Under the pieces are notes generated by a model that was given only the letters and a program-made list of their open reading frames with translations, searched no databases and was not told the DNA's origin. Source: Actinomycetota bacterium (GTDB lineage: Bacteria > Actinomycetota > Actinomycetes > Propionibacteriales > Propionibacteriaceae). From it: a DNA stretch of 33,617 nucleotides. Each line of letters opens with the position of its first letter. Positions within the stretch are counted from its first letter, which is position 1. Of the stretch, positions 3,906 through 33,617 are shown piece by piece. The position numbers and the translations under genes are program-made. The DNA lies in contig JACRAA010000317.1 in assembly GCA_016213595.1 (NCBI GenBank), positions 1-33,617 of the forward strand, written 5' to 3'.

Positions 3906-4375
3906 TGTCGACGGGCCCAGTCGACGCCGACCTCACCGAGTGGAAGCGGATGTCGGCACTGCTGAAGACGGCCGACAAGAAGCTCGCCCGGGAGACCCGG
4001 AAGGCGCTCAAGACGGTGGCGCAGCCGATCGCGGACAAGGTCGCCGCAGAGGGCGCCGGGGCCATGCCCCACCGGGGCGGGCTGTCGGCGTATCTGGCGG
4101 CGAACGTGAAGCCGCGAGTGAACCTTCCCGCGGCCTTCGGCGGCGTCTCCACGATGACGATCGCGCTGCAGGACAAGAAGGGCGGCGTGGCGGTCAAAGC
4201 GATGGACCGGGGAATGCTCCGGCACCCGCTGTTCGGTCGCCGCCGCCACTGGTACCTGCAGCAGGTCCCCGCGAACGCGTGGACGGACTCGTTCATGCGG
4301 CAGAAGGACACGGCTGTCGTCGAGGTCGAGAAGGCCGTGCAGGAAACGATCAACTCGCTAGGGGGAGCCAAGTGA
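3905..4375 (+). CDS. Minor tail-completion-like protein (HK97 gp10-like, tentative)
   Basis: ATG overlaps the preceding TGA; 156 aa. Confidence 0.5.
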   Translation: MSTGPVDADLTEWKRMSALLKTADKKLARETRKALKTVAQPIADKVAAEGAGAMPHRGGLSAYLAANVKPRVNLPAAFGGVSTMTIALQDKKGGVAVKAMDRGMLRHPLFGRRRHWYLQQVPANAWTDSFMRQKDTAVVEVEKAVQETINSLGGAK

Positions 4376-10029: not shown

Positions 10030-10371
10030 ATGTGGACTCTCGTGTTCTGGCGCGCCGTCGCTGACCGCGCCCTCAAGACGGCCGCGCAGGCTGCCCTCCT
10101 CGTCGCGGGTTCCGACTCGCTCAGGGCCAACGCGCTCACGTTCGACTGGCTGAAGATGGGCGGGTTCGCGCTCGGCGGCATCGTCCTGTCCGTGCTCATG
10201 AGCATCGCCTCGGCGGCGTCCACGGACGGCTCTCCGTCGCTGACTGGGGCGGAGATCCTGACGCCGCCCGTCGTCCCGCAGCGCGCTCTGCCTGCCGAGC
10301 CTTCCGTCACGGCGAACGCCAACGGAACCGTGACGAGCGTGGCTGCTGACGGCACCACGACCCTGAGCTGA
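10030..10371 (+). CDS. Putative holin
   Basis: 113 aa with two hydrophobic stretches; ...AQAALLVAG...MGGFALGGIVLSVLMSIAS...; r1t-like pattern next to the endolysin. Confidence 0.65.
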   Translation: MWTLVFWRAVADRALKTAAQAALLVAGSDSLRANALTFDWLKMGGFALGGIVLSVLMSIASAASTDGSPSLTGAEILTPPVVPQRALPAEPSVTANANGTVTSVAADGTTTLS

Positions 10372-10385
10372 AAGGCGGTTGGGGG

Positions 10386-10763
10386 ATGACGACGCCCGCA
10401 GCAGAGCCCCGTGAGGCCGAAAGCATGGCAATCACCCTGACCCGCATGGAAGGCAAGCTCGACTCCGTCGTGGAGAAGGTCTCAGACCTGCGGACGGAGG
10501 TCACCCAGCACCGGGCGGACATCACGGCGCTCAAGTCGACGACGCAACAGATCCAGTCCGACATGCAGGGGGCCGAGGCCGCACGCGTCCTCGCGGCAGC
10601 TGCAGTCAAGGCGGCAGAGGAAGCGCGGATGGCGCTCGTCCAGGCCGAGACCGCCGCGTCGGTGCAGCGGTGGACGCCCGTGCAGCGGCTGTACGCCACC
10701 CTCGGCGCGTGCGCGGCTCTCGTCGCGATCGTCTACTACGTCGTCACCTTCACTCACCACTGA
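10386..10763 (+). CDS. Coiled-coil protein with a C-terminal TM helix (XhlA-like lysis accessory)
   Basis: 125 aa; MEGKLDSVVEKVSDLRTEVTQHRADITALKS...LYATLGACAALVAIVYYVVTFTHH. Confidence 0.6.
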   Translation: MTTPAAEPREAESMAITLTRMEGKLDSVVEKVSDLRTEVTQHRADITALKSTTQQIQSDMQGAEAARVLAAAAVKAAEEARMALVQAETAASVQRWTPVQRLYATLGACAALVAIVYYVVTFTHH

Positions 10764-10788
10764 TCCGCACCACCGAAAGGACTCTGCC

Positions 10789-11043
10789 GTGAACCGCATC
10801 TGTGACATCTGCCGGGCGATCGACGACCAGCCCCGCCACATCACCTACCACCCGGCCGGCGCGATCCCTGTCGACCAGGAGGCCGTGAAGGCCGTCCTCG
10901 CCGCCCAGGGCCTCAGCGACGACGAGCGGGCCACCATCCTCACGGACGTGTTCGACACGGCCGACGAGCGCCACCACTTCCAGTGCGGCGCATCCAAGGG
11001 CTGCGCGGACTGCGTCGCCTCGACCACGACGCAGGAGGGCTGA
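10789..11043 (+). CDS. Cys-rich small protein (zinc-binding-like)
   Basis: 84 aa; CDIC...H...C...CADC. Confidence 0.55.
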   Translation: MNRICDICRAIDDQPRHITYHPAGAIPVDQEAVKAVLAAQGLSDDERATILTDVFDTADERHHFQCGASKGCADCVASTTTQEG

Positions 11044-14754: not shown

Positions 14755-15765
14755 TCACGTCCGGGGCGGGAAGCTGAAGCCGACGCCCCGGGGAGCATCG
14801 GACCAGACCGGCAAGACGCTCCACCCAGTGGGGAAGCCCATCTCGTCCTCAGCCGAGAGATACGGCACGATCGGGAACTTCTTGACGTGAGTCGCCAGGG
14901 AGCGAGGCCAGTTGGACGAAGGGTCGAGGTTGCGAACCAGGTAGGCCATCACGGCCAGAGCGCTGTACACCTTGGGCTGGACAACCCGCTCTGACAGATG
15001 GCCCAGGTCGGGTCCCACTTCCTGCACGTAGAACCTACGGAGGCTCGTCCCGAGCTGGCGGTTCCAGAGGCGACCATGGTGAGCAGCGATGTTCCTGACG
15101 TGGTGGATCGTCATCAGGAACGCGTGCAGACCCGCGCCGCTCGAGACCCCGAGCGCGCGCGCGATGGCGTTCTGATCCTCCCTCTTCATCAGCGAGAGAA
15201 GCCGCAGGATCGACCCAAACGAGAGGAACTCAACCGCAATCCAGACGGGAATTTCTGACTCTCCGTAGGTGAGCAGATGATGCTTGACGTACTCCTCGCT
15301 GGCGGCCTCCGACTGCTGCTTCCGATAGCTCACCTCCCATGCCTCAAACACCGTTTGAGTGGACGAGCACTTGCGACCGCAAGCCGTCGCGTCGAGGCAG
15401 CCGGGGGACAGATGTCCGAAGGGATTGCGAGCCCCCAGCACATAGGCCAAGCGGGTTCGTACCCCGACCTCGATGGTCTCGGCTGCTTGGAACGCCAACG
15501 ATCGCAACCTCTGATCGAACACCCACATCTTCTCGACGCAGTCCCAGGTCACGCCCTGTCGGAGCTCCTCCCGGCGATAGTGCGCTGTTGTCTGCTGGTC
15601 TTCGGGGAGCATCTCGCGGAACGGGTAGACGTAAGCAGACCACCGGTAGTACCCGACCGACCGGAGGATCCGCAGCGCCTCTCCACGGTCAGAGACAGCG
15701 AGCCCACGACTCTCCAGCTTCGCCAGCTGATCCTCAAAGGTGAGGTAGGGCTTCGCGTACTTCAC
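14755..15765 (-). CDS. Abi_2 (AbiD/AbiF-like) abortive-infection HEPN protein
   Basis: HVRNIAAHHGRLWNR contains the Rx4H HEPN motif typical of Abi_2; KPYLTFEDQLAKLESRGL...ILRSVGYYRWSAYVYPFR is the family N-terminus; GTG at 15765 with GGAG RBS. Confidence 0.85.
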   Translation of the reverse strand: MKYAKPYLTFEDQLAKLESRGLAVSDRGEALRILRSVGYYRWSAYVYPFREMLPEDQQTTAHYRREELRQGVTWDCVEKMWVFDQRLRSLAFQAAETIEVGVRTRLAYVLGARNPFGHLSPGCLDATACGRKCSSTQTVFEAWEVSYRKQQSEAASEEYVKHHLLTYGESEIPVWIAVEFLSFGSILRLLSLMKREDQNAIARALGVSSGAGLHAFLMTIHHVRNIAAHHGRLWNRQLGTSLRRFYVQEVGPDLGHLSERVVQPKVYSALAVMAYLVRNLDPSSNWPRSLATHVKKFPIVPYLSAEDEMGFPTGWSVLPVWSDAPRGVGFSFPPRT

Positions 15766-15790
15766 GGGGTGCGTCTCCGGTCCTGGAGCA

Positions 15791-15830
15791 AGAAAACCGG
15801 CCCTTGCCACCGAAGTGGTAGTGGGGCCGG
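15791..15830 (-). terminator. Intrinsic-terminator-like hairpin in the leader of abi
   Basis: Minus strand: CCGGCCC-cacta-CCAC(TTCG)GTGG-caa-GGGCCGG-TTTTCTT. Confidence 0.7.
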
Positions 15831-15960
15831 CGTTATGAGTACAACCTAGCTCACGATCTTGAGGGCTAGTGAATCGGGCCACCAATCTTGGCTAGATCTC
15901 AGACCTGAGTGCAGGCAGGTCTTGGGTGCCAAGACACACATGTCTTGCTCCCCTTCCTTC
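15791..15960 (-). ncRNA. Candidate structured non-coding RNA upstream of abi
   Basis: Minus-strand chain of hairpins: CAAGACA-TGTG-TGTCTTG (15930-15947), AGACCTG-N8-CAGGTCT (15901-15922), CTAG-CC-CTCA-N6-TGAG-CTAG (15846-15869), then the terminator hairpin. Confidence 0.45.
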
Positions 15961-16368: not shown

Positions 16369-17232
16369 TCACGCGACCCAGCGCAGCGCCTCGCGCATCG
16401 ACGCCGAGCTCGTGTCGAGGTAGACCTGCGTCGTCGACAGCGCCGAGTGGCCAAGGAAGAGCTGCACGGCACGCAGGTCGTGCTCTCCCTCGTATGTCCT
16501 CGTCGCGAAGCGCCGGCGGAGGCTGTGCGGGCCCCAGCCGTCCGGCATGGCGGCCCGGATGAGGGCCCACACGCGCGAGGCCGATAGGTGCCCGTTGCGG
16601 CCCGGGAACAGCCATCCGTGGGGAGCAGCTGCGATCCGTGCCGCGATGTCGGCGTGGAGCGGGATAGTGCGCTCGCGCGAGCCCTTCCCGTGGACGACGA
16701 GCATCCAGCCGTCGGGGTCGCGGCGCAGGTCACGCGTGTGGACGGCGGCGATCTCGCATCGGCGCAGGCCCTCACGCGCGGCGAGGTCGACCATCAGCCG
16801 CACGCGCTCATCACCCTGGACGGCGGCGATCGCGGCCTCAGGGGCAGCCGGGAGGTTGTGGCGGTAGTACTTGATCGGAGGCAGGTCTTCGGCGGGGGAG
16901 CGCCGGATGACGTGTGCCTCGACGAGGAAGCGGTAGAAGTCGCGGAACGTGGCCCTCACGCTGTAGCGCGTCGCTGCGCTCCAGTCGTGGCTGTTGAGCC
17001 ACCGCGTCAGGTCTTCGGTCGTCGCTGCCCGGATCTTCCCTGGGTGCTGCTCGCCGAAGCACCGGAGCTGCCAGGTACGGAGGTACACGGTGGACTGGGG
17101 GCGGCCTATACGACGGAGGTGGGTCCCGTAGGCGTCGATGTCGGAGTTCATGACTCCTGACTTCAACGCTCGGGGGGTCAATTCGTCAAGGCTCACTAGC
17201 AAATCGGCCCGGCGTTTGAGCAGAAGGGTCAT
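16369..17232 (-). CDS. int: Tyrosine integrase
   Basis: Catalytic boxes GLRRCEIAAV, HGKGSRERTIPL, HSLRRR, LGHSALSTTQVYLDTS; ATG at 17232 overlaps the repressor stop. Confidence 0.93.
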   Translation of the reverse strand: MTLLLKRRADLLVSLDELTPRALKSGVMNSDIDAYGTHLRRIGRPQSTVYLRTWQLRCFGEQHPGKIRAATTEDLTRWLNSHDWSAATRYSVRATFRDFYRFLVEAHVIRRSPAEDLPPIKYYRHNLPAAPEAAIAAVQGDERVRLMVDLAAREGLRRCEIAAVHTRDLRRDPDGWMLVVHGKGSRERTIPLHADIAARIAAAPHGWLFPGRNGHLSASRVWALIRAAMPDGWGPHSLRRRFATRTYEGEHDLRAVQLFLGHSALSTTQVYLDTSSASMREALRWVA

Positions 17233-17585
17233 GCGACAAGCGCCAGGGGGCGCGGGCCGACTCTTGTGGACCAAACACCTGTTCGAGCGTGTCGGCTTGC
17301 CGGAGGGGTGTTGGTCTCGGCCTCTGGTCCCCCGTCATCAGGGCTGACAGGAGCCCTGCCCGCTTCCAACCATTCAAGCGGGACTCCCGTCCGGATCGAC
17401 CAGAGCCGAAGCGTCTGGCGGGACGGCACGATGCGGCCGTTGATCCAGTTCGACACGGTCGTACGGGCAACGCCGAGGTACTCGGCCATCTCTTGGACCC
17501 CAAGCCCTGAGATACGGAGGGCGCGGCGCATGCGGTCGGCGAGGTCAAACTCCAGCCTCGCGCTCATCTCACGTTCTGCACTCAT
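17229..17585 (-). CDS. XRE-family HTH immunity repressor
   Basis: LGVQEMAEYLGVARTTVSNWINGRIVPSRQTLRLWSIRTGVPLEWLEAG; divergent from the early operon. Confidence 0.85.
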   Translation of the reverse strand: MSAEREMSARLEFDLADRMRRALRISGLGVQEMAEYLGVARTTVSNWINGRIVPSRQTLRLWSIRTGVPLEWLEAGRAPVSPDDGGPEAETNTPPASRHARTGVWSTRVGPRPLALVA

Positions 17586-17710: not shown

Positions 17711-17959
17711 ATGACGCACCCTGAAACCCTCGACTTGGTCGGGACGTCGGACGCCTCCCGGATCCTGGGAGTCCACCCCGCAACCGTTACTCGCATGGTC
17801 GAATCCGACCAGCTCACGCCCGCCGGCCGCCTTGGTGGCGACACGGGCGCCTTCGTCTTCAACCGCTCCGACGTCGTCGCTCTCGCTGAGAAGCGCAAGG
17901 CCGAGACCGAGGAGCCACCCACGTCGCCGACGTCCGGCGCGTCCCGAAGCGTGTTCTGA
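17711..17959 (+). CDS. Excise/Cro-like HTH DNA-binding protein
   Basis: GTSDASRILGVHPATVTRMVESDQLTPAGRLGGDTGAFVFNRSDVVAL. Confidence 0.75.
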   Translation: MTHPETLDLVGTSDASRILGVHPATVTRMVESDQLTPAGRLGGDTGAFVFNRSDVVALAEKRKAETEEPPTSPTSGASRSVF

Positions 17960-18264: not shown

Positions 18265-18629
18265 ACCGCCCGACCGGACCCGAAGTGGTCGAGGCGATCA
18301 GCGCTGCCGCTGAGATCGACATCACGGAGCTCCTCGCAGCGTTGGAGCCCGTACGGGACGCTCTCGCGACCGCGCGGGAGGACGTGACCGAGGCCCTCAC
18401 GCTCGCCGGCAGCGCTGACTCGTACAACCGTGAGGTGCGCTACGCGGAGCTGCGGAAGGCGCGGGCCCGTCGGGACGCGTTCAAGCGTGTGATCTTTGCC
18501 GTCGAGCACCTCGCCTCCCGTCTCCACGAGGGCGACGGGCCGCCCGCGCCGAAGCCGGACTACATCGCGCAGGCGGTCGCAGCCATCGACGCCGCGACCG
18601 TGCGCCGTGCGAGGGGAGGCCTGAGATGA
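18261..18629 (+). CDS. Hypothetical helical early protein
   Basis: ATGA coupling; 122 aa. Confidence 0.65.
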   Translation: MNRPTGPEVVEAISAAAEIDITELLAALEPVRDALATAREDVTEALTLAGSADSYNREVRYAELRKARARRDAFKRVIFAVEHLASRLHEGDGPPAPKPDYIAQAVAAIDAATVRRARGGLR

Positions 18630-18808
18630 GCACCGCCGCCTCCGGGAGCCGCACGTCCCGCCCCCACACCGCCCAGCGTGACGACACGCCGCACCTGACC
18701 TTCTGGGGCGTCGTCGGCATGTGCCTTCTGATCCTCGTCGTCATGGTCGGGGCCGTCTTCGTCGCCAACGCCGGCGCGGCCGCCCTCGACCAGTTGGGGC
18801 GGCCCTGA
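18626..18808 (+). CDS. Small single-TM protein
   Basis: 60 aa; LTFWGVVGMCLLILVVMVGAVFVANAGA. Confidence 0.6.
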   Translation: MSTAASGSRTSRPHTAQRDDTPHLTFWGVVGMCLLILVVMVGAVFVANAGAAALDQLGRP

Positions 18809-19287
18809 TGAGTCCCACGTACGCCGCGAAGACCGCTGTCAACTGGCGGGCGTCCCGCGACGAGATCGAGCGCACCCTCAGCAGGTACGGCGCGAGTCAG
18901 TTCATGACCGGATGGAGTGACGGCGGCGCGATGGTCGCATTCTCTGCTCGTGGCCGCCAGTTCCGTTTCGTCCTGCCGCTTCCCGACCGTCGTGAGCGCC
19001 AGTTCACGCACACGCCCGAGCGAGACCTCGAACGAACCCCGCTCCAGGCCGAGCAGGCCTACGAGCAAGGCATTCGGCAGAGGTGGCGCGCGCTCGCACT
19101 GATCATCAAGGCGAAGCTCGAAGCGGTCGAGGCGGGAGTCTCGGACTTCGAGTCTGAGTTCCTCGCTCACACCATCTTGCCCAGCGGCCGGACAGTCGCC
19201 GAGGAGACGCTCCCGAGCATCACGCGGATGTACCAGGGCGGCGAGGTCCGCCCCCTGCTCGAAGTCACGACGGGCGGCCAGTCATGA
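18808..19287 (+). CDS. Conserved-looking phage hypothetical protein
   Basis: 159 aa; ...FLAHTILPSGRTVAEETLPSITRMYQGGEVRPLLE... Confidence 0.7.
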   Translation: MSPTYAAKTAVNWRASRDEIERTLSRYGASQFMTGWSDGGAMVAFSARGRQFRFVLPLPDRRERQFTHTPERDLERTPLQAEQAYEQGIRQRWRALALIIKAKLEAVEAGVSDFESEFLAHTILPSGRTVAEETLPSITRMYQGGEVRPLLEVTTGGQS

Positions 19288-19415
19288 TCGCCCCCCTGAA
19301 CGCCTCGCCTGGGCTGCCCCAAGGGCCCAGTGAGCGAGGCCCCGTGGTCCGGGCGGGCGACGACGATGTGAACCCCGCCCGGACTGCCACCACCGCCGAG
19401 GTGGTCGCGCCATGA
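19284..19415 (+). CDS. 43-aa micro-ORF
   Basis: ATGA-coupled; MIAPLNASPGLPQGPSERGPVVRAGDDDVNPARTATTAEVVAP; below the ORF-track cutoff. Confidence 0.45.
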   Translation: MIAPLNASPGLPQGPSERGPVVRAGDDDVNPARTATTAEVVAP

Positions 19416-19507
19416 TCCTCGACTTCCTGCGCCATGTGCCCCCGTACATCGGCCTGCCCGTGCTCGGCGCCCTGACTGGCCTCGCGATCTGGTGGTTTAC
19501 GCGATGA
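19412..19507 (+). CDS. 31-aa TM micropeptide 1
   Basis: ATGA-coupled; MILDFLRHVPPYIGLPVLGALTGLAIWWFTR. Confidence 0.55.
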   Translation: MILDFLRHVPPYIGLPVLGALTGLAIWWFTR

Positions 19508-19599
19508 CTGGCGGCATGTGGTGCTTCCTGATCGCGGCCCTCTCCGGCCTGACCTTGATCGGCTGCCTGCTGCGGTGGCGTCGTCAGGACGAGTCATGA
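19504..19599 (+). CDS. 31-aa TM micropeptide 2
   Basis: ATGA-coupled; MTGGMWCFLIAALSGLTLIGCLLRWRRQDES. Confidence 0.55.
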   Translation: MTGGMWCFLIAALSGLTLIGCLLRWRRQDES

Positions 19600-19691
19600 C
19601 CGTCCGGCGTCTGCTGCTCATCCTCGCCGCGCTCGCGGTCCTCACCCTCGCCATCTGCCGATGGCTCACACACACGATCCAGGAGCTCTAG
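19596..19691 (+). CDS. 31-aa TM micropeptide 3
   Basis: ATGA-coupled; MTVRRLLLILAALAVLTLAICRWLTHTIQEL. Confidence 0.55.
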   Translation: MTVRRLLLILAALAVLTLAICRWLTHTIQEL

Positions 19692-19694
19692 CTG

Positions 19695-19856
19695 ATGAGG
19701 CAGGCCGCCGAGCCCCGCTGCCCGGGCTGTGGCGGCGTCGTGAAGGACCGCGACTGGTGGGACCACACCGAGTGCATGGACGAGGCCCACAAGGTCCGCA
19801 AGTACGACGAGACCGACCAGGACGACTACCCCGAGACGAGAGAGAGAACATCGTGA
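19695..19856 (+). CDS. 53-aa zinc-finger-like protein
   Basis: MRQAAEPRCPGCGGVVKDRDWWDHTECMDEAHKVRKYDE...; CxxC...HxxC. Confidence 0.55.
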   Translation: MRQAAEPRCPGCGGVVKDRDWWDHTECMDEAHKVRKYDETDQDDYPETRERTS

Positions 19857-20812
19857 AGACCGACTCATCCGACCTCGACGTGGTGGACGAGGACGAGATT
19901 GTGGACGCGGAGATCCTCCCGCTGGAGATCACCAAGCCCGGCCTGTACCAGCTCTCCGACGAGGAGTACTTCGCGGATCCGGTGCCCGGTGGCAGCTTCT
20001 CCCAGTCCGGCTCGAAGATCCTCCTCCAGGAGGGCGGACCGGCCAAGTACGCCTACTCGCTGACGGTGGGCGAGGAGCAGAAGGACGCCTACGACTTCGG
20101 CAAAGCCATGCACTACCGGGTGCTCGGACAGGGCACCCCGTACGTCGTCCTCGACTTCGAGAACCGCATGACGAAGGCCTACAAAGAGCAGGCGGCCGAG
20201 GCTCGGGCCCAGGGCGCCGTGCCGATCCTGCGGAAGCAGGCGGCGCAGATCGACGCCATGTACGAGGCACTGATGCGGCACCCGCAGGCGCGCGAGCACT
20301 TCGAGCGCGAGGGGATCGCCGAGCTCGCCGGCTTCGTCCAGGACAAGGAGACCGGGGTCTGGCTGCGCGGGAAGTTCGACTTCCTGACCGCGATCGGCTC
20401 GATCGACTACAAGACCAGCGACGACGCCTCGCCGCGGACGGTGTTCAGCGCCCAGGCGATCCGCCTCGGCTACCACGTCCAGGACGCCATGTACCGCCGG
20501 CTGCAGCGCGAGCTCGTCGACCCCGAGTGCGACCGCGTCATCTTCGCCGTGCAGGACAAGGACGCCCCGTACCTGGCCGCTGTCGTCGAGCTCGACGAGG
20601 CGTACCGCGCACTGGGGGAGCGTCGCCTGCAGAAGGCCATCCGACTGTTCGCCGAGTGCAAGGCCACGGAGTCGTGGCCCGGATACGGCGACGAGCTGAT
20701 CACGCTCCACCCGCCGGAGTGGGCCATGAAGGAGCTCCGCAACGAAGAGTCCGACGAGGAGCACGAAGCCCGTATCGCCGCCGACATGGCCGAGTTCCGG
20801 TCCCTGCTCTGA
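19853..20812 (+). CDS. RecE-like PD-(D/E)XK exonuclease
   Basis: GTG start coupled to previous stop; ...FDFGKAMHYRVLG-like box (YDFGKAMHYRVLG), RGKFDFLTAIGSIDYKTSDDASP; upstream of recT. Confidence 0.8.
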   Translation: MKTDSSDLDVVDEDEIVDAEILPLEITKPGLYQLSDEEYFADPVPGGSFSQSGSKILLQEGGPAKYAYSLTVGEEQKDAYDFGKAMHYRVLGQGTPYVVLDFENRMTKAYKEQAAEARAQGAVPILRKQAAQIDAMYEALMRHPQAREHFEREGIAELAGFVQDKETGVWLRGKFDFLTAIGSIDYKTSDDASPRTVFSAQAIRLGYHVQDAMYRRLQRELVDPECDRVIFAVQDKDAPYLAAVVELDEAYRALGERRLQKAIRLFAECKATESWPGYGDELITLHPPEWAMKELRNEESDEEHEARIAADMAEFRSLL

Positions 20813-20846: not shown

Positions 20847-22088
20847 ATGACCATCGCCAAGCCCGAGAAGCCCACCGCCGGCGGTCTCGTGAAGCAGTAC
20901 GGAACCGACTTCGCCACCGTCCTCCCGACCCACGTCAAGCCCGAGCAGTGGGTACGTCTGGCACAGGGCGCCCTCAAGAAGGGCAAGCGCAACGCCTCCG
21001 GGCAGTTCGAGCTCGAGGAGGCAGCCCTGAACAACCCCGGCGTCTTCCTCGCGGCACTGCTCGACGCCGCCCGGCTCGGCCTGGAGCCCGGCACCGAGCA
21101 GTACTACCTCACGCCCCGGAAGGTGAAGGGGCGTCTGGAGATCCTCGGCATCGTCGGCTACCAGGGACTCGTCGAGCTGATGTACCGGGCCGGCGCCGTC
21201 TCGTCGGTCGTCGCGGAGGTCGTCCGGGTCGGCGACGTCTTCCAATACCAGCCCGGCCGCGACGAGCGTCCCGTGCACGTCATCGACTGGGACGCGGAGG
21301 ACCGGGGGCAGCTCCGCCTCGTGTACGCCTACGCCGTGATGCGCGACGGTGCGACGTCGAAGGTCGTCGTGCTGAACAAGGCCGACATCGCGCGGATCAA
21401 GCTCTCCTCACAGGGCGCGAACAGCGAGTACTCGCCGTGGACGACGAACCCCGCGGCGATGTGGCTCAAGTCGGCCGTGCGCCAGCTCGCGAAGTGGGTG
21501 CCGACGTCGGCCGAGTACCGCCGCGAGCAGCTGCGTGCAGTCGCCGCAGTGCAGGCCGAGGGCACGCTCGCTGCTCAGGTGCAGGACGTTCGCCGCACAC
21601 AGCTGGAGGCGATCGCCGAAGAGCGCGACGTGGAGCCCGGCGAGTATGTCGACGCGATCACGGGCGAGGTCTCGTACGCGGACCCCGACCAGATCGAAGG
21701 CGAGCCCCAGGACGAGCCCGAGCCGCCGGACGTCGAGCAGCAGCAGGCGACGGTCCGCGACCTGAAGGCCGAGCTGCGCCTGCTCAGTGAGGACGCCGCC
21801 CCCGCCCCTCGTGTCGTCGCCCCGAAGCCTCGGACCCCGAAGGCCTCCCGCGAGGACCGTGCTCGGATCATGGCGCTGTTCACCCGTCTCAAGGTGAGTG
21901 AGCGCGACAAGCAGCACACCTACATGGCCGGTCTCGTAGGCCACCCGGTGACCGCCACCGATGACCTCACCCCCGACGAGGCCGCCCTGGTCATCGCCAA
22001 CCTCGAAGGCATGACGGACCCCATCGACGCCGCCGGCGCCATGGACGGCGACTCGATCGACGTCTCCTCAGAGCCCGACGAGGACTGA
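20847..22088 (+). CDS. recT: RecT-family ssDNA annealing protein with C-terminal extension
   Basis: RLGLEPGTEQYYLTPRKVKGRLEILGIVGYQGLVELMYRAG...NPAAMWLKSAVRQLAKWVPTS. Confidence 0.9.
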   Translation: MTIAKPEKPTAGGLVKQYGTDFATVLPTHVKPEQWVRLAQGALKKGKRNASGQFELEEAALNNPGVFLAALLDAARLGLEPGTEQYYLTPRKVKGRLEILGIVGYQGLVELMYRAGAVSSVVAEVVRVGDVFQYQPGRDERPVHVIDWDAEDRGQLRLVYAYAVMRDGATSKVVVLNKADIARIKLSSQGANSEYSPWTTNPAAMWLKSAVRQLAKWVPTSAEYRREQLRAVAAVQAEGTLAAQVQDVRRTQLEAIAEERDVEPGEYVDAITGEVSYADPDQIEGEPQDEPEPPDVEQQQATVRDLKAELRLLSEDAAPAPRVVAPKPRTPKASREDRARIMALFTRLKVSERDKQHTYMAGLVGHPVTATDDLTPDEAALVIANLEGMTDPIDAAGAMDGDSIDVSSEPDED

Positions 22089-29180: not shown

Positions 29181-29504
29181 ATGAGCCTGCGTGCTGTGAA
29201 GGCCGGGGACACGCCGGCGGCCGAGCCGGACGTCACGAAGCCGGCGGCGTCAAGAAGGCGCGCGAAGTCGGTCCTCGAGGCCGCCAACTCGGGCGACATG
29301 CGGGCCTTGCTGATCGCGATGCGGTCCCGGATCGCCCGTGCGGTGCAGAACCCGAAGACGTCGCCGCGGGACCTGGCTGCGTTGACGCGCCAGCTGCAGG
29401 ACATCGCGAAGCAGATCGAGGAGATCGACCTGCTGGCGAAGGCCCAGGAGGACGAGAGTGACGACGAAGTCCCCGACGAAGACTTCGACCCGTCGGCTCT
29501 CTGA
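29181..29504 (+). CDS. terS: Terminase small subunit
   Basis: 107 aa; helical with acidic tail; immediately before TerL. Confidence 0.7.
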   Translation: MSLRAVKAGDTPAAEPDVTKPAASRRRAKSVLEAANSGDMRALLIAMRSRIARAVQNPKTSPRDLAALTRQLQDIAKQIEEIDLLAKAQEDESDDEVPDEDFDPSAL

Positions 29505-31011
29505 TGTCGCTCGCTACATCCGGATCCCGGACGGGATCGTCACCTCGGGCTGGCCGGCTGTTGCGCGCAAGCTCAGCGAGTGGGGCGTGTTCTTCCGTGG
29601 CTCCGACGCCTGGGAGGACGGCCTCGGCCGACTGATCCTCGGCAAGCGTGCCGACGGGAAGTACGCGGCGACGGTCGGCGGGATCGTGCTGCGGATCCCG
29701 CGGCAGGTCGCCAAGACGTGGTTCGTGGGCCGGCTGCTGTTCGCCCTGTGCGTGCTGTTCCCGGGCCTGCAGGTCGTCTGGACGGCGCACCACACGGCGA
29801 CGCTGACGAAGACGTTCCAGTCGTTGAGCACGTTCGCGAAGCGGCGCAAGGTCGCCCCGTACGTCGGCGACCCGGAGACCGGCAAGTCAGGCATCAAGCG
29901 GGGGTCCGGCAAGGAAGCGATCCTGTTCCTGAACGGGTCGGCGATCTGGTTCGGTGCTCGTGACCAGGGCTTCGGGCGTGGCTTCGAGATGATCGACGTC
30001 CTGGTCTTCGACGAGGCGCAGATCCTGAACCCGAAGGCGCTCGAGGACCTGATCGCGGCGACGAACCAGGCGCAGCACGTCCACGGCGGGCTCGTGTTCT
30101 ACATGGGCACCCCGCCGCGGCCGACGGATCCGGGGGCGACGTTCGACCTGAAGCGGGTCAAGGCGCTGACGGGCCTGAAGCCGGGGACCGTGAAGGGGAT
30201 CCTGGTCGGCGGGAACATGATCTACGTCGAGTGTTCGGCGCATCCGAACATCGGGCGTGACGGCGGCCCGTCGCTCGACGACCGCGGCGAGTGGCGTACG
30301 GCGAACCCGTCCTACCCGGAGCGGACGCCGGAAGAGTCGATGCTGCGGATGCGGGAGAACCTGCCCAGCGACGACGCGTGGCGCCGTGAGGCGATGGGCG
30401 TCAGCGACGACGACGCGATGACCCAGGCGGGCATCGACATGTCGGTCCTGCGGAAGCTGGTCCTCGGCAAGGGCACGAAGCTCGTCCCGCAGATGTTCGC
30501 GCTCGACGTGAGCCCGAAGCGGTCGGCGGCGTGCATTGTCGCGTCGGGCTGGTGCGGCACGAAGGTCGGCGTCGAGATCCCGAGCTCCAAGGGCCTGTTC
30601 GACCACCGGCCGGGCATCGGCTGGCTGCCGGAGCGGATGCGGGCGCTGAGCAAGGCCTTCCCGGACGCGGTCTGGGTCATCGTGACCCGGTCGCAGGCGG
30701 CCGCGTACCTGACGTTCCTGCTCAACGAGCTCGAGGTCGACGTACTGCAGCTCTCAAGCGCCGACTGGCCGGGCGTGTGCGCGTCGATGGTCGGCCTGAT
30801 CGAGGACGGCACCCTCGCCCACACCGGTGACGAGGAGCTGATGGAAGCGTTCGGCGGGGCGGTCCTGGTGAACGTCGGCGAGGAGCAGGTCCGCTGGGGC
30901 CGGCAGAAGTCGTCGACCGACATCACGCCTGTCGTCGCCGCGACGGCAGCGGCCGTCATGGCCTACCGCGATGGCGACCAGGCCTTCGACCTCAACTCCA
31001 TCGTCCAGTGA
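29458..31011 (+). CDS. terL: Terminase large subunit
   Basis: RIPRQVAKT (Walker A-like), VLVFDEAQ (Walker B), C-terminal nuclease-like ALDVSPKRSAACI; GTG with AGGAGG RBS. Confidence 0.92.
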   Translation: MTTKSPTKTSTRRLSDVARYIRIPDGIVTSGWPAVARKLSEWGVFFRGSDAWEDGLGRLILGKRADGKYAATVGGIVLRIPRQVAKTWFVGRLLFALCVLFPGLQVVWTAHHTATLTKTFQSLSTFAKRRKVAPYVGDPETGKSGIKRGSGKEAILFLNGSAIWFGARDQGFGRGFEMIDVLVFDEAQILNPKALEDLIAATNQAQHVHGGLVFYMGTPPRPTDPGATFDLKRVKALTGLKPGTVKGILVGGNMIYVECSAHPNIGRDGGPSLDDRGEWRTANPSYPERTPEESMLRMRENLPSDDAWRREAMGVSDDDAMTQAGIDMSVLRKLVLGKGTKLVPQMFALDVSPKRSAACIVASGWCGTKVGVEIPSSKGLFDHRPGIGWLPERMRALSKAFPDAVWVIVTRSQAAAYLTFLLNELEVDVLQLSSADWPGVCASMVGLIEDGTLAHTGDEELMEAFGGAVLVNVGEEQVRWGRQKSSTDITPVVAATAAAVMAYRDGDQAFDLNSIVQ

Positions 31012-31020
31012 GGAGCCACC

Positions 31021-31188
31021 GTGCGTGACCTTGTGATGACCGTGTTCGAGATCGTCGGGCTGCTCAGCCTGGCGCTCTCGCCGGCGGTCATGCTGTGGCC
31101 CTTCTCGCCGGCGCTGAGCCTGGCGTCGTTCGGGCTGTGCCTGCTCGTCGAGTCGGTCGTGCTGTCGAAGGTCGGGAGGAAGCGATGA
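31021..31188 (+). CDS. 55-aa small membrane protein
   Basis: GTG after GAGGAG RBS; MRDLVMTVFEIVGLLSLALSPAVMLWPFSPALSLASFGLCLLVESVVLSKVGRKR; ATGA-coupled to portal. Confidence 0.6.
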   Translation: MRDLVMTVFEIVGLLSLALSPAVMLWPFSPALSLASFGLCLLVESVVLSKVGRKR

Positions 31189-32357
31189 GCCTGCTGTTCA
31201 GCAAGCGCGGCCTCGGCGACTCCGAGAACCAGCTCGTGCCGCCCCGGAACCTGCCGAACGGCCGCCGGCTGCCGACGTCGGAGGAGTCGATGCGGCACTC
31301 GGCCGTGTGGAGCTGCCTCAACCTGCGCTCGTCGCTGATCTCGACCCTGCCGGCCGTCCAGTACCGGATGAGCGCCGGCCTGAAGGTGCCGATGCCGTCG
31401 GCGCAGCTGCTGACCGCTCCCGGCTCGCTGCACGTCGGCGGGCCCCTGGCTCGATTCGACGAGTGGATCTCGGCGACGCAGACCGACCTCGACCGGTACG
31501 GCAACGCGTTCGGCTACAAGGTCGCGATCGACGGCGGCTGGGGCGTGCCGACCCGCATCGACCTGCTGCCGGCGGAGAACGTCACCGTCCGCGTCCGGGA
31601 CGGCGTCGTGACCTACGCGTACGGCGGCAAGACCTACAACCAGTGGGAGATCTGGCACGAGCGCCAGTTCGTCGTCCCCGGGTCCCCGGTGGGCATGTCG
31701 CCGATGTCGGCGGCCGCGTACAGCGTCAGCCAGTACACGACGGCGCAGGCCTTCGCGGCGCAGTGGTTCTCGTCGGGCGGCATCCCGTCGGCGAAGCTGC
31801 AGACGGGCAAGACGATCACCCCGGCCGAGGCGCTCCAGGTGAAGAACCGGATCAAGGCGATGTTGTCGGCCGGCGACGTGCTCGTCCTCGGCAAGGACCA
31901 GGACTACGAGATGATCACAGTCCCCGCGAACCAGGCCGCGTTCATCGAGGCGATGGACTTCTCCGTCCTCGACGTGGCCCGGATCTACAACACCCCCGGC
32001 GACATGATCGACATCCCGATCAAGGGCAGCCGGATCACGTACGCGAACGTCACGCAGAAGAACCTCGACTACCTCACGATCCGGCTCGCGCCGTCGATCT
32101 TCCGGCGCGAGCGGGCCATCAGCGCCGCCCTGCCGATGCCACACCTCATGGAGTTCCAGTCGGACGCGCTGCTGCGCCTCGACCCGCAGACGTTGACCAT
32201 GATCCGCGGCCAGCAGGTCGACAAGCGTGCGCTGACTCCTGACGAGTGGCGCGAGATGGACAACCGCAAGCCGCTCACGGCTGACCAGATCAGCCAGTTC
32301 TCCGTCCTGTTCTCCGGCCTGACTACCTCACCAGGAGTGTCCGATGTCGCTGCATAG
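31185..32357 (+). CDS. HK97-type portal protein
   Basis: HSAVWSCLNLRSSLISTLPAVQY...DLDRYGNAFGYKV...GMSPMSAAAYSVSQ...ARIYNTPGDMI. Confidence 0.92.
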   Translation: MSLLFSKRGLGDSENQLVPPRNLPNGRRLPTSEESMRHSAVWSCLNLRSSLISTLPAVQYRMSAGLKVPMPSAQLLTAPGSLHVGGPLARFDEWISATQTDLDRYGNAFGYKVAIDGGWGVPTRIDLLPAENVTVRVRDGVVTYAYGGKTYNQWEIWHERQFVVPGSPVGMSPMSAAAYSVSQYTTAQAFAAQWFSSGGIPSAKLQTGKTITPAEALQVKNRIKAMLSAGDVLVLGKDQDYEMITVPANQAAFIEAMDFSVLDVARIYNTPGDMIDIPIKGSRITYANVTQKNLDYLTIRLAPSIFRRERAISAALPMPHLMEFQSDALLRLDPQTLTMIRGQQVDKRALTPDEWREMDNRKPLTADQISQFSVLFSGLTTSPGVSDVAA

Positions 32358-33225
32358 TGAAGCCGCCCAGCTGCGCGCCGCCCATGTGGGGACGCGAGCC
32401 GATCGCCCGTTGCAGCGTCGCTGCGCCCAGTTCCCGGACTCTCCGAGGGTTGCCATCACGCGCGGTGCGAAGCTCCAGCTGCGCGACACCGGCGACGGCA
32501 CGGAGTTCACGGGCTACGCGTCCGTCGTGTCCCGCGGCTACGAGATGTGGGACATGTTCGGCCCGTACACCGAGGAGGTCGTGCCGGGTGCGTTCGCCAA
32601 CACGCTCAACATGGCCGACCTCGACGTGCCGCTCGTCCTGGCTCACGACTCGCTGCGCCGGATCGCGCGGACGTCGAACGGCTCGCTGACCCTGGCCGAG
32701 GACGACCACGGCCTGCTGTGCCGCGCGCCGCAGCTCGACCCGACCGACGTCGACGTGAACTACATCAGCCCGAAGATCCGCAGCGGCCTCATCGACGAGA
32801 TGAGCTTCGCGTTTCGGATCGTCCGCGGCGAGTGGTCGCCCGACTGGACGCAGTACAACATCCTCGAGGTCGACATCAACCGCGGCGACGTGGCGATCGT
32901 CGGCTACGGCGCGAACCCGTACACGTCGGTGGCGCTGCGGTCTGTGACGAACAAGCTCACGCACAAGCGGGCCCTCGACCCGCAGGACGTGTCTGTGCTG
33001 ACGCAGGCGCTCGGCTGGTTCACGGCGATCGACTCGATCGTCGACGAGGCGCAGGAGTCCCTCGCCGCCTACCTCGGCACCCCGAACCCTGACCCGGACG
33101 AGGGCGAGGACGTCGCCGAGCTCGCACAGAAAAGCCTGCTCGCGCTCCGTGCCCGCGAGGCCCGGCTCCGCGCCGACATGACCGCAGCGAACGTACGGCC
33201 CGCGCTGCGTCTGGCCGACATCTAG
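32344..33225 (+). CDS. HK97-type prohead protease (S78-like)
   Basis: FTGYASVVSRGYEMWDMFGPYTEEVVPGAFANTL...VLAHDSLRRIARTSNGSLTLAEDDHGL...MSFAFRIVRGEW. Confidence 0.9.
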   Translation: MSLHSEAAQLRAAHVGTRADRPLQRRCAQFPDSPRVAITRGAKLQLRDTGDGTEFTGYASVVSRGYEMWDMFGPYTEEVVPGAFANTLNMADLDVPLVLAHDSLRRIARTSNGSLTLAEDDHGLLCRAPQLDPTDVDVNYISPKIRSGLIDEMSFAFRIVRGEWSPDWTQYNILEVDINRGDVAIVGYGANPYTSVALRSVTNKLTHKRALDPQDVSVLTQALGWFTAIDSIVDEAQESLAAYLGTPNPDPDEGEDVAELAQKSLLALRAREARLRADMTAANVRPALRLADI

Positions 33226-33363: not shown

Positions 33364-33617
33364 ATGAACATCGACACGCTCATCAAGGGCGTCTCCGACG
33401 GCATCGGCGAGCAGCTCGCCAAGCGCGGCGACCAGGCCAAGATCATCGAGGACGTACGCGCCTCCATGATCGCCACGAAGCGCGAGATCGCCAACGACGT
33501 CGAGGCCGACCAGGTCCGCGCCGCGAAGGCCCTGATCGACTCGATCGACCAGGACATCACGGAGCGCCGGGCCCGTCTCGACGAGCTCAAGGCCGAGAAG
33601 GCCTCCAACGAGGCCGC
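33364..33617 (+). CDS. HK97-type major capsid protein, N-terminal part (coiled-coil, scaffold-like); continues at position 142 after circularisation
   Basis: ATG at 33364 with upstream AAGGGG; MNIDTLIKGVSDGIGEQLAKRGDQAKIIEDVRASM... stays open to the window end and joins in frame with the ORF at the window start through the 141-nt overlap (total 479 aa). Confidence 0.9.
   Translation, partial: MNIDTLIKGVSDGIGEQLAKRGDQAKIIEDVRASMIATKREIANDVEADQVRAAKALIDSIDQDITERRARLDELKAEKASNEA
33477..33617. repeat. Terminal redundancy, identical to 1-141
   Basis: Direct comparison. Confidence 0.97.

Follow-up and report, generated by a model that had tools for sequence, protein, structure and literature searches.

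The locus lies in a 33,617-nucleotide stretch of DNA, hereafter the window, which makes up one entire contig of a fragmented 487-contig genome assembly. Because both ends carry the same exact direct repeat of 141 bp (1 to 141 and 33477 to 33617), the window most likely holds an entire phage genome, circular and 33,476 bp long. This temperate siphophage shares its layout with cultivated phages such as Propionibacterium phage PFR1 and Mycobacterium phage Sonah. Genes were found for the major capsid protein (248 to 1327), the terminase (29458 to 31011), the portal (31095 to 32357) and the prohead protease (32344 to 33225), and the late region contains an r1t-type holin gene (10030 to 10371; PF16945/phrog_443). 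On the minus strand lie an Abi_2-family abortive-infection-like gene (14755 to 15882; PF07751, E 1.4e-40), the tyrosine integrase gene that it adjoins (16369 to 17151), and a gene for a CI-like HTH repressor (17229 to 17585). A rightward early operon, divergent from the repressor gene, starts beyond this block at 17711 with an HTH_17/excisionase-like gene (17711 to 17959) and runs through to the genes for a RecE-like exonuclease (19853 to 20812; DUF3799/phrog_412 exonuclease VIII) and a RecT single-stranded DNA-annealing protein (20847 to 22088). Scanning the region from 17.1 to 20.9 kb revealed no sigma-70 promoter or terminator, such scans being weak for high-GC actinobacteria.

The rightward operon contains a chain of very short ORFs. 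It is preceded by a gene for a 60-aa single-transmembrane (TM) protein (18626 to 18808), ATGA-coupled to an upstream 122-aa gene, and by a 159-aa gene of unassigned function (18808 to 19287; phrog_17260). The chain opens with a 43-aa non-membrane ORF (19284 to 19415), which overlaps the end of the 159-aa gene by the 4 nt ATGA at 19284. Identical overlaps at 19412, 19504 and 19596 link it to three successive ORFs of 31 aa each, called 31a (19412 to 19507), 31b (19504 to 19599) and 31c (19596 to 19691), the last of which ends with a TAG codon (19689 to 19691). The coordinates, lengths and 4-nt overlaps that the initial annotation gave for these four micro-ORFs were all exact. Directly downstream of the chain come a gene for a 53-aa zinc-ribbon-like mini-protein (CPGC...H..C; 19695 to 19856), which is GTGA-coupled to the RecE gene, and then RecE and RecT.

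To assess coding potential, 12 long genes of the window served to train codon and off-frame tables, and the five alternative frames were scored for comparison. The proposed frame outscored each alternative, by no less than 11.1 natural-log units for 31a, 9.1 for 31b and 14.1 for 31c, with GC3 values of 0.87 to 0.90; the lead was weaker, 3.4 units, for the 43-aa ORF, whose coding signal is the weakest of the chain. In third-order Markov simulations of the window (60 windows of 33.6 kb, one strand), 18 ATGA chains with at least three ORFs of 20 to 60 aa arose, and none of them had three hydrophobic members. In the window itself, a search of both strands returned only the present chain with three such members. 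These sequence features support the notion that 31a, 31b and 31c are genuine coding ORFs. We considered that they might instead be chance ORFs, or pieces of a single larger multi-helix gene split by sequencing errors, as homopolymer indels could generate three frame steps of the same size. This is very unlikely, given that an ATG is in place at each junction, that 31a has a strong Shine-Dalgarno (SD) sequence, that each frame shows its own coding bias, and that relatives carry similar separate, coupled mini-ORFs (see below).

SD-like pairing is strong upstream of 31a (GAGGTGG, 7 nt before the start) and of the 60-aa gene, whose site has a duplex energy rank of 0.003 among all ATGs, and it is weak upstream of the 43-aa ORF, 31b and 31c. 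The weak sites at the latter three fit with reinitiation at the ATGA overlaps, which is not proof of it. Overlaps of this -4 type couple translation (PMC10666635, PMC6728339). Translation is probably coupled along the chain.

As proposed in the initial annotation, each of the three 31-aa peptides has a hydrophobic helix, with one hydrophobic stretch apiece in Kyte-Doolittle analyses. It spans approximately residues 13 to 29 in 31a, 7 to 23 in 31b and 5 to 21 in 31c, with best 17-residue means of 1.74, 2.41 and 2.61, respectively. The C terminus of 31b is positively charged, predicting a C-in orientation, and an RR pair precedes the helix of 31c. All three peptides are probably inserted in the membrane. 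The fourth small TM protein that had been reported nearby corresponds to the 60-aa ORF, with a hydropathy peak of 3.01 over 17 residues. We discarded the idea that the peptides are lipoproteins or lipopeptides, as read from their sequences against the rule of a basic n-region followed by a [LVI][ASTVI][GAS]C lipobox: 31b has LIGC and no basic n-region, and 31c has RR, but its LAIC motif carries I at position -1.

The three ORFs are of equal size, with 31 codons each and a spacing of 92 nt, and we looked for signs of common descent. Ungapped DNA identities among them are 35% to 46%. In register, 31b and 31c share 10 of 31 positions, a weak similarity (p ~0.01, range ~0.005 to 0.025, uncorrected) that is not significant after correction, and 31a has no significant similarity to either of them. 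Tandem duplication is therefore unsupported for 31a and only weakly hinted at for 31b and 31c, equal length being no proof.

Searches elsewhere gave no homologue of 31a, 31b or 31c. Pfam and PHROG profile searches with the three peptides returned sub-threshold matches only and no named family. A blastn search of phages found no relative of any of the three genes; a hit with an E value of 0.2 in Streptomyces phage mu1/6 falls within an unrelated gene near the terminase and was dismissed as chance. No relative was found by tblastn with 31c, the sole peptide tried, and the fetched relatives contained no convincing match to 31a, 31b or 31c. Orthologous peptides were absent both from the relatives anchored on RecE (at most 40% identity) and from a relative anchored on RecT (64% to 68% identity). 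A resemblance of 31c to one other stretch (L014), with a p value of 0.0025 among 62 comparisons, was lost after correction.

This lack of homologues speaks for the main rival to a function of the peptides themselves, namely, that the ORFs are young or under low constraint, de novo proto-genes with an incidental tendency toward the membrane, and that their dense ATGA links serve mainly to hand ribosomes of the 159-aa gene on to the zinc-ribbon gene and RecE, the products having little or no function. We regard this as possible, though doubtful. It agrees with the observations that the mini-ORFs have other lengths and sequences in each relative and that de novo ORFs tend toward membrane character (PMC7005711). 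However, at the 68% GC of this genome, out-of-frame DNA seldom encodes hydrophobic peptides, as illustrated by the 0 of 60 simulated windows, and the codon usage of 31a, 31b and 31c resembles that of real genes. The relay would also be discontinuous, since the TAG codon of 31c is followed by a 3-nt gap and by a gene with its own AGGAG-like site.

The genes flanking the chain have distributions of their own. The product of the 159-aa gene has homologues in unrelated gene contexts, including Mycobacterium phages and an unannotated gut phage, and one with 49% identity in Leptospira phage LE1, whose host belongs to another phylum. Among 198 genomes of the family, the gene is present only in its own genome. 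It is a mobile gene, and since its homologues lie in unrelated contexts, it was rejected as an anchor to collect relatives. The 53-aa zinc-ribbon-like protein (CxxC...HxxC) has a homologue at the same place in a genome of the same genus (G031, stretch L019). Mini zinc-ribbons of a similar kind come before the exonuclease gene in L019 and in the phages Lton and Sonah. The mini zinc-ribbon is a recurring partner linked to RecE.

Using RecE as the anchor, we assembled 21 stretches, i.e., the window and 20 further actinobacterial phage or prophage stretches, and counted the hydrophobic, ATGA- or GTGA-coupled ORFs of 20 to 50 aa near RecE that passed a codon-score filter. Twelve such mini-ORFs, of 30 to 50 aa, were found on the operon strand in 9 of the 21 stretches, two of them being the window's own, and none on the antisense strand of the same stretches, a lenient control as the codon scores were trained on sense genes. 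The filter is strict, in that it excludes 31a as well as two successive coupled hydrophobic mini-ORFs of 32 and 48 aa near RecE in L040 (7895 to 8136). Coupled hydrophobic mini-ORFs near RecE are also found in L039 (10569 to 10998; including 42 and 33 aa), in L052, with at least two (3942 to 4150; including one of 31 aa), and in L049 (one of 31 aa). Their sizes and sequences vary from relative to relative. In another stretch (L066, ~10526 to 10930), the gene directly 5′ of a nuclease that by eye is YqaJ-like opens with a single hydrophobic helix; that nuclease, which differs from RecE, adjoins a RecT protein 64% to 68% identical to that of the window.

The chain had been singled out as something special. 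It is indeed the only three-helix chain of the window, but coupled mini membrane ORFs recur in actinobacterial phages. In size, hydrophobicity and gene overlap, the window peptides fit a descriptive class of putative mini membrane proteins of actinophages, with products of ~25 to 50 aa that have one hydrophobic helix and are encoded by early-operon genes with ATGA or GTGA overlaps near RecE or RecT. Unlike a named family, this class does not call for homology. In dense form, the chain exemplifies a common, under-annotated and poorly understood pattern, and it is not a new system; what stands out in the window is the presence of three consecutive members of 31 aa.

Mini membrane proteins of 43 to 50 aa are annotated in cultivated phages of Gordonia, Arthrobacter and Mycobacterium. 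They include gp44 (50 aa, TM) and gp58 (45 aa) of Gordonia phage Lton, gp38 of Arthrobacter phage Sarge (46 aa, annotated as "membrane protein") and gp54 of Mycobacterium phage Farewell (45 aa). Like the window peptides, the proteins of these three phages have one hydrophobic helix and are encoded in early operons by tightly packed or ATGA/GTGA-overlapping genes. The window differs in having three shorter genes of 31 aa in a row, and sequence similarity to these proteins is not demonstrated; Lton gp44 matches phrog_8218, whereas the window peptides match no phrog. Gene order in Lton is that of the window, with the TM gene gp44 followed by mini zinc-ribbon genes and a Cas4-type exonuclease gene. 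Mycobacterium phage Sonah likewise has annotated micro-ORFs of comparable size with the same type of overlap, gp42 to gp45 (59, 43, 28 and 49 aa), in the slot before RecE, but none of the four is hydrophobic and two are zinc-ribbon-like. Together, Lton and Sonah indicate that the order of TM mini-genes, zinc-ribbon mini-gene and RecE in the window follows a pre-existing slot. Small phage genes are reportedly the subject of a 2022 study by Fremin et al., cited in the review by Beggs and Bassler. The window peptides likewise belong to the under-annotated phage genes of less than ~50 to 100 aa treated in that 2024 review, whose subject, according to its abstract, is proteins that act on lifestyle decisions and host gene expression; none of its passages matched by a term search describes membrane peptides of 31 aa encoded in a coupled chain (PMC11323111).

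The initial annotation regarded the ORFs as a membrane-active early set. Coding ORFs, probable translational coupling, probable membrane insertion and location in an early operon all hold for 31a, 31b and 31c, but the specific roles in superinfection exclusion or lysis regulation found no support. Some known exclusion systems use small membrane proteins, which is in line with a function of the peptides in superinfection exclusion or prophage-mediated defense. Sbash gp30/gp31 and lambda RexAB also work at the membrane, and like the window peptides they are encoded by phages and have the host membrane as their proposed site of action; however, they are multi-helix, ion-channel-like proteins made in the lysogen, with four TM helices in RexB and Sbash gp31 (PMC6426596). 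More generally, described prophage defense and exclusion genes are expressed in lysogeny (PMC6426596). In contrast, the operon of the window, which runs from the CI-like repressor into RecE and RecT, is expected to be silent in the lysogen. Its position past the divergent repressor, together with recombination genes, makes lysogenic exclusion less likely, and the chain has no lipoprotein or RexAB-like gene. We thus consider an exclusion or defense role unlikely. The Abi_2-family gene on the minus strand is a better candidate for prophage defense than the micropeptides.

A role as lysis regulators, i.e., a pinholin, an antiholin or holin helices made separately, is highly improbable. Short TM peptides with opposite charge biases, C-in for 31b and RR before the helix for 31c, could conceivably form a multi-helix, holin-like assembly. 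Nevertheless, the phage has a separate r1t-type holin in the late region, far from the chain at 19.3 to 19.7 kb, which makes such a role unlikely, and expression from an early operon would be wrongly timed. Pfam and PHROG searches gave no holin match for the chain peptides, and the chain lies outside the lysis cassette.

Our preferred interpretation, held with moderate confidence, is that 31a, 31b and 31c are early lytic genes, coupled by reinitiation, whose products span the membrane once and act on membrane proteins of the host. Ribosomes would load at one region and proceed through the chain by termination and reinitiation, so that the products would be made together. Each 31-aa product would insert into the inner membrane in a single pass and, at the onset of the lytic cycle, bind and modulate host membrane proteins, singly or as a small hetero-oligomer. 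The peptides would thereby serve an accessory host-takeover function that is rapidly replaced among phages. Translation, coupling, membrane insertion, hetero-oligomerization and the target are all steps that we infer, the host target entirely so, and a 31-aa peptide might fail to accumulate. Of the predicted membrane proteins of phage Adephagia, some inhibit growth of the host when expressed and others do not (PMC11373665), and toxicity of 31a, 31b and 31c can therefore not be presumed. In Escherichia coli and Haloferax, gene pairs with -4 overlaps encode subunits of heteromeric complexes more often than expected (PMC10666635). A more specific proposal, that the three peptides form a hetero-oligomeric complex, in effect a split, co-translated three-helix protein that is inserted early to inhibit a membrane enzyme or defense effector of the host, appears improbable.

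On its own, the locus settles no open question, and it is of modest interest unless the three peptides form one functional complex. Should that be the case, the chains of actinophage early operons would represent split membrane effectors of a general class that has been overlooked. If they are translated, 31a, 31b and 31c would be among the smallest phage genes of their operon type. The recurrence of coupled hydrophobic mini-ORFs in the set of 21 RecE-linked stretches points to a systematic blind spot, as such genes are readily missed by length cutoffs.
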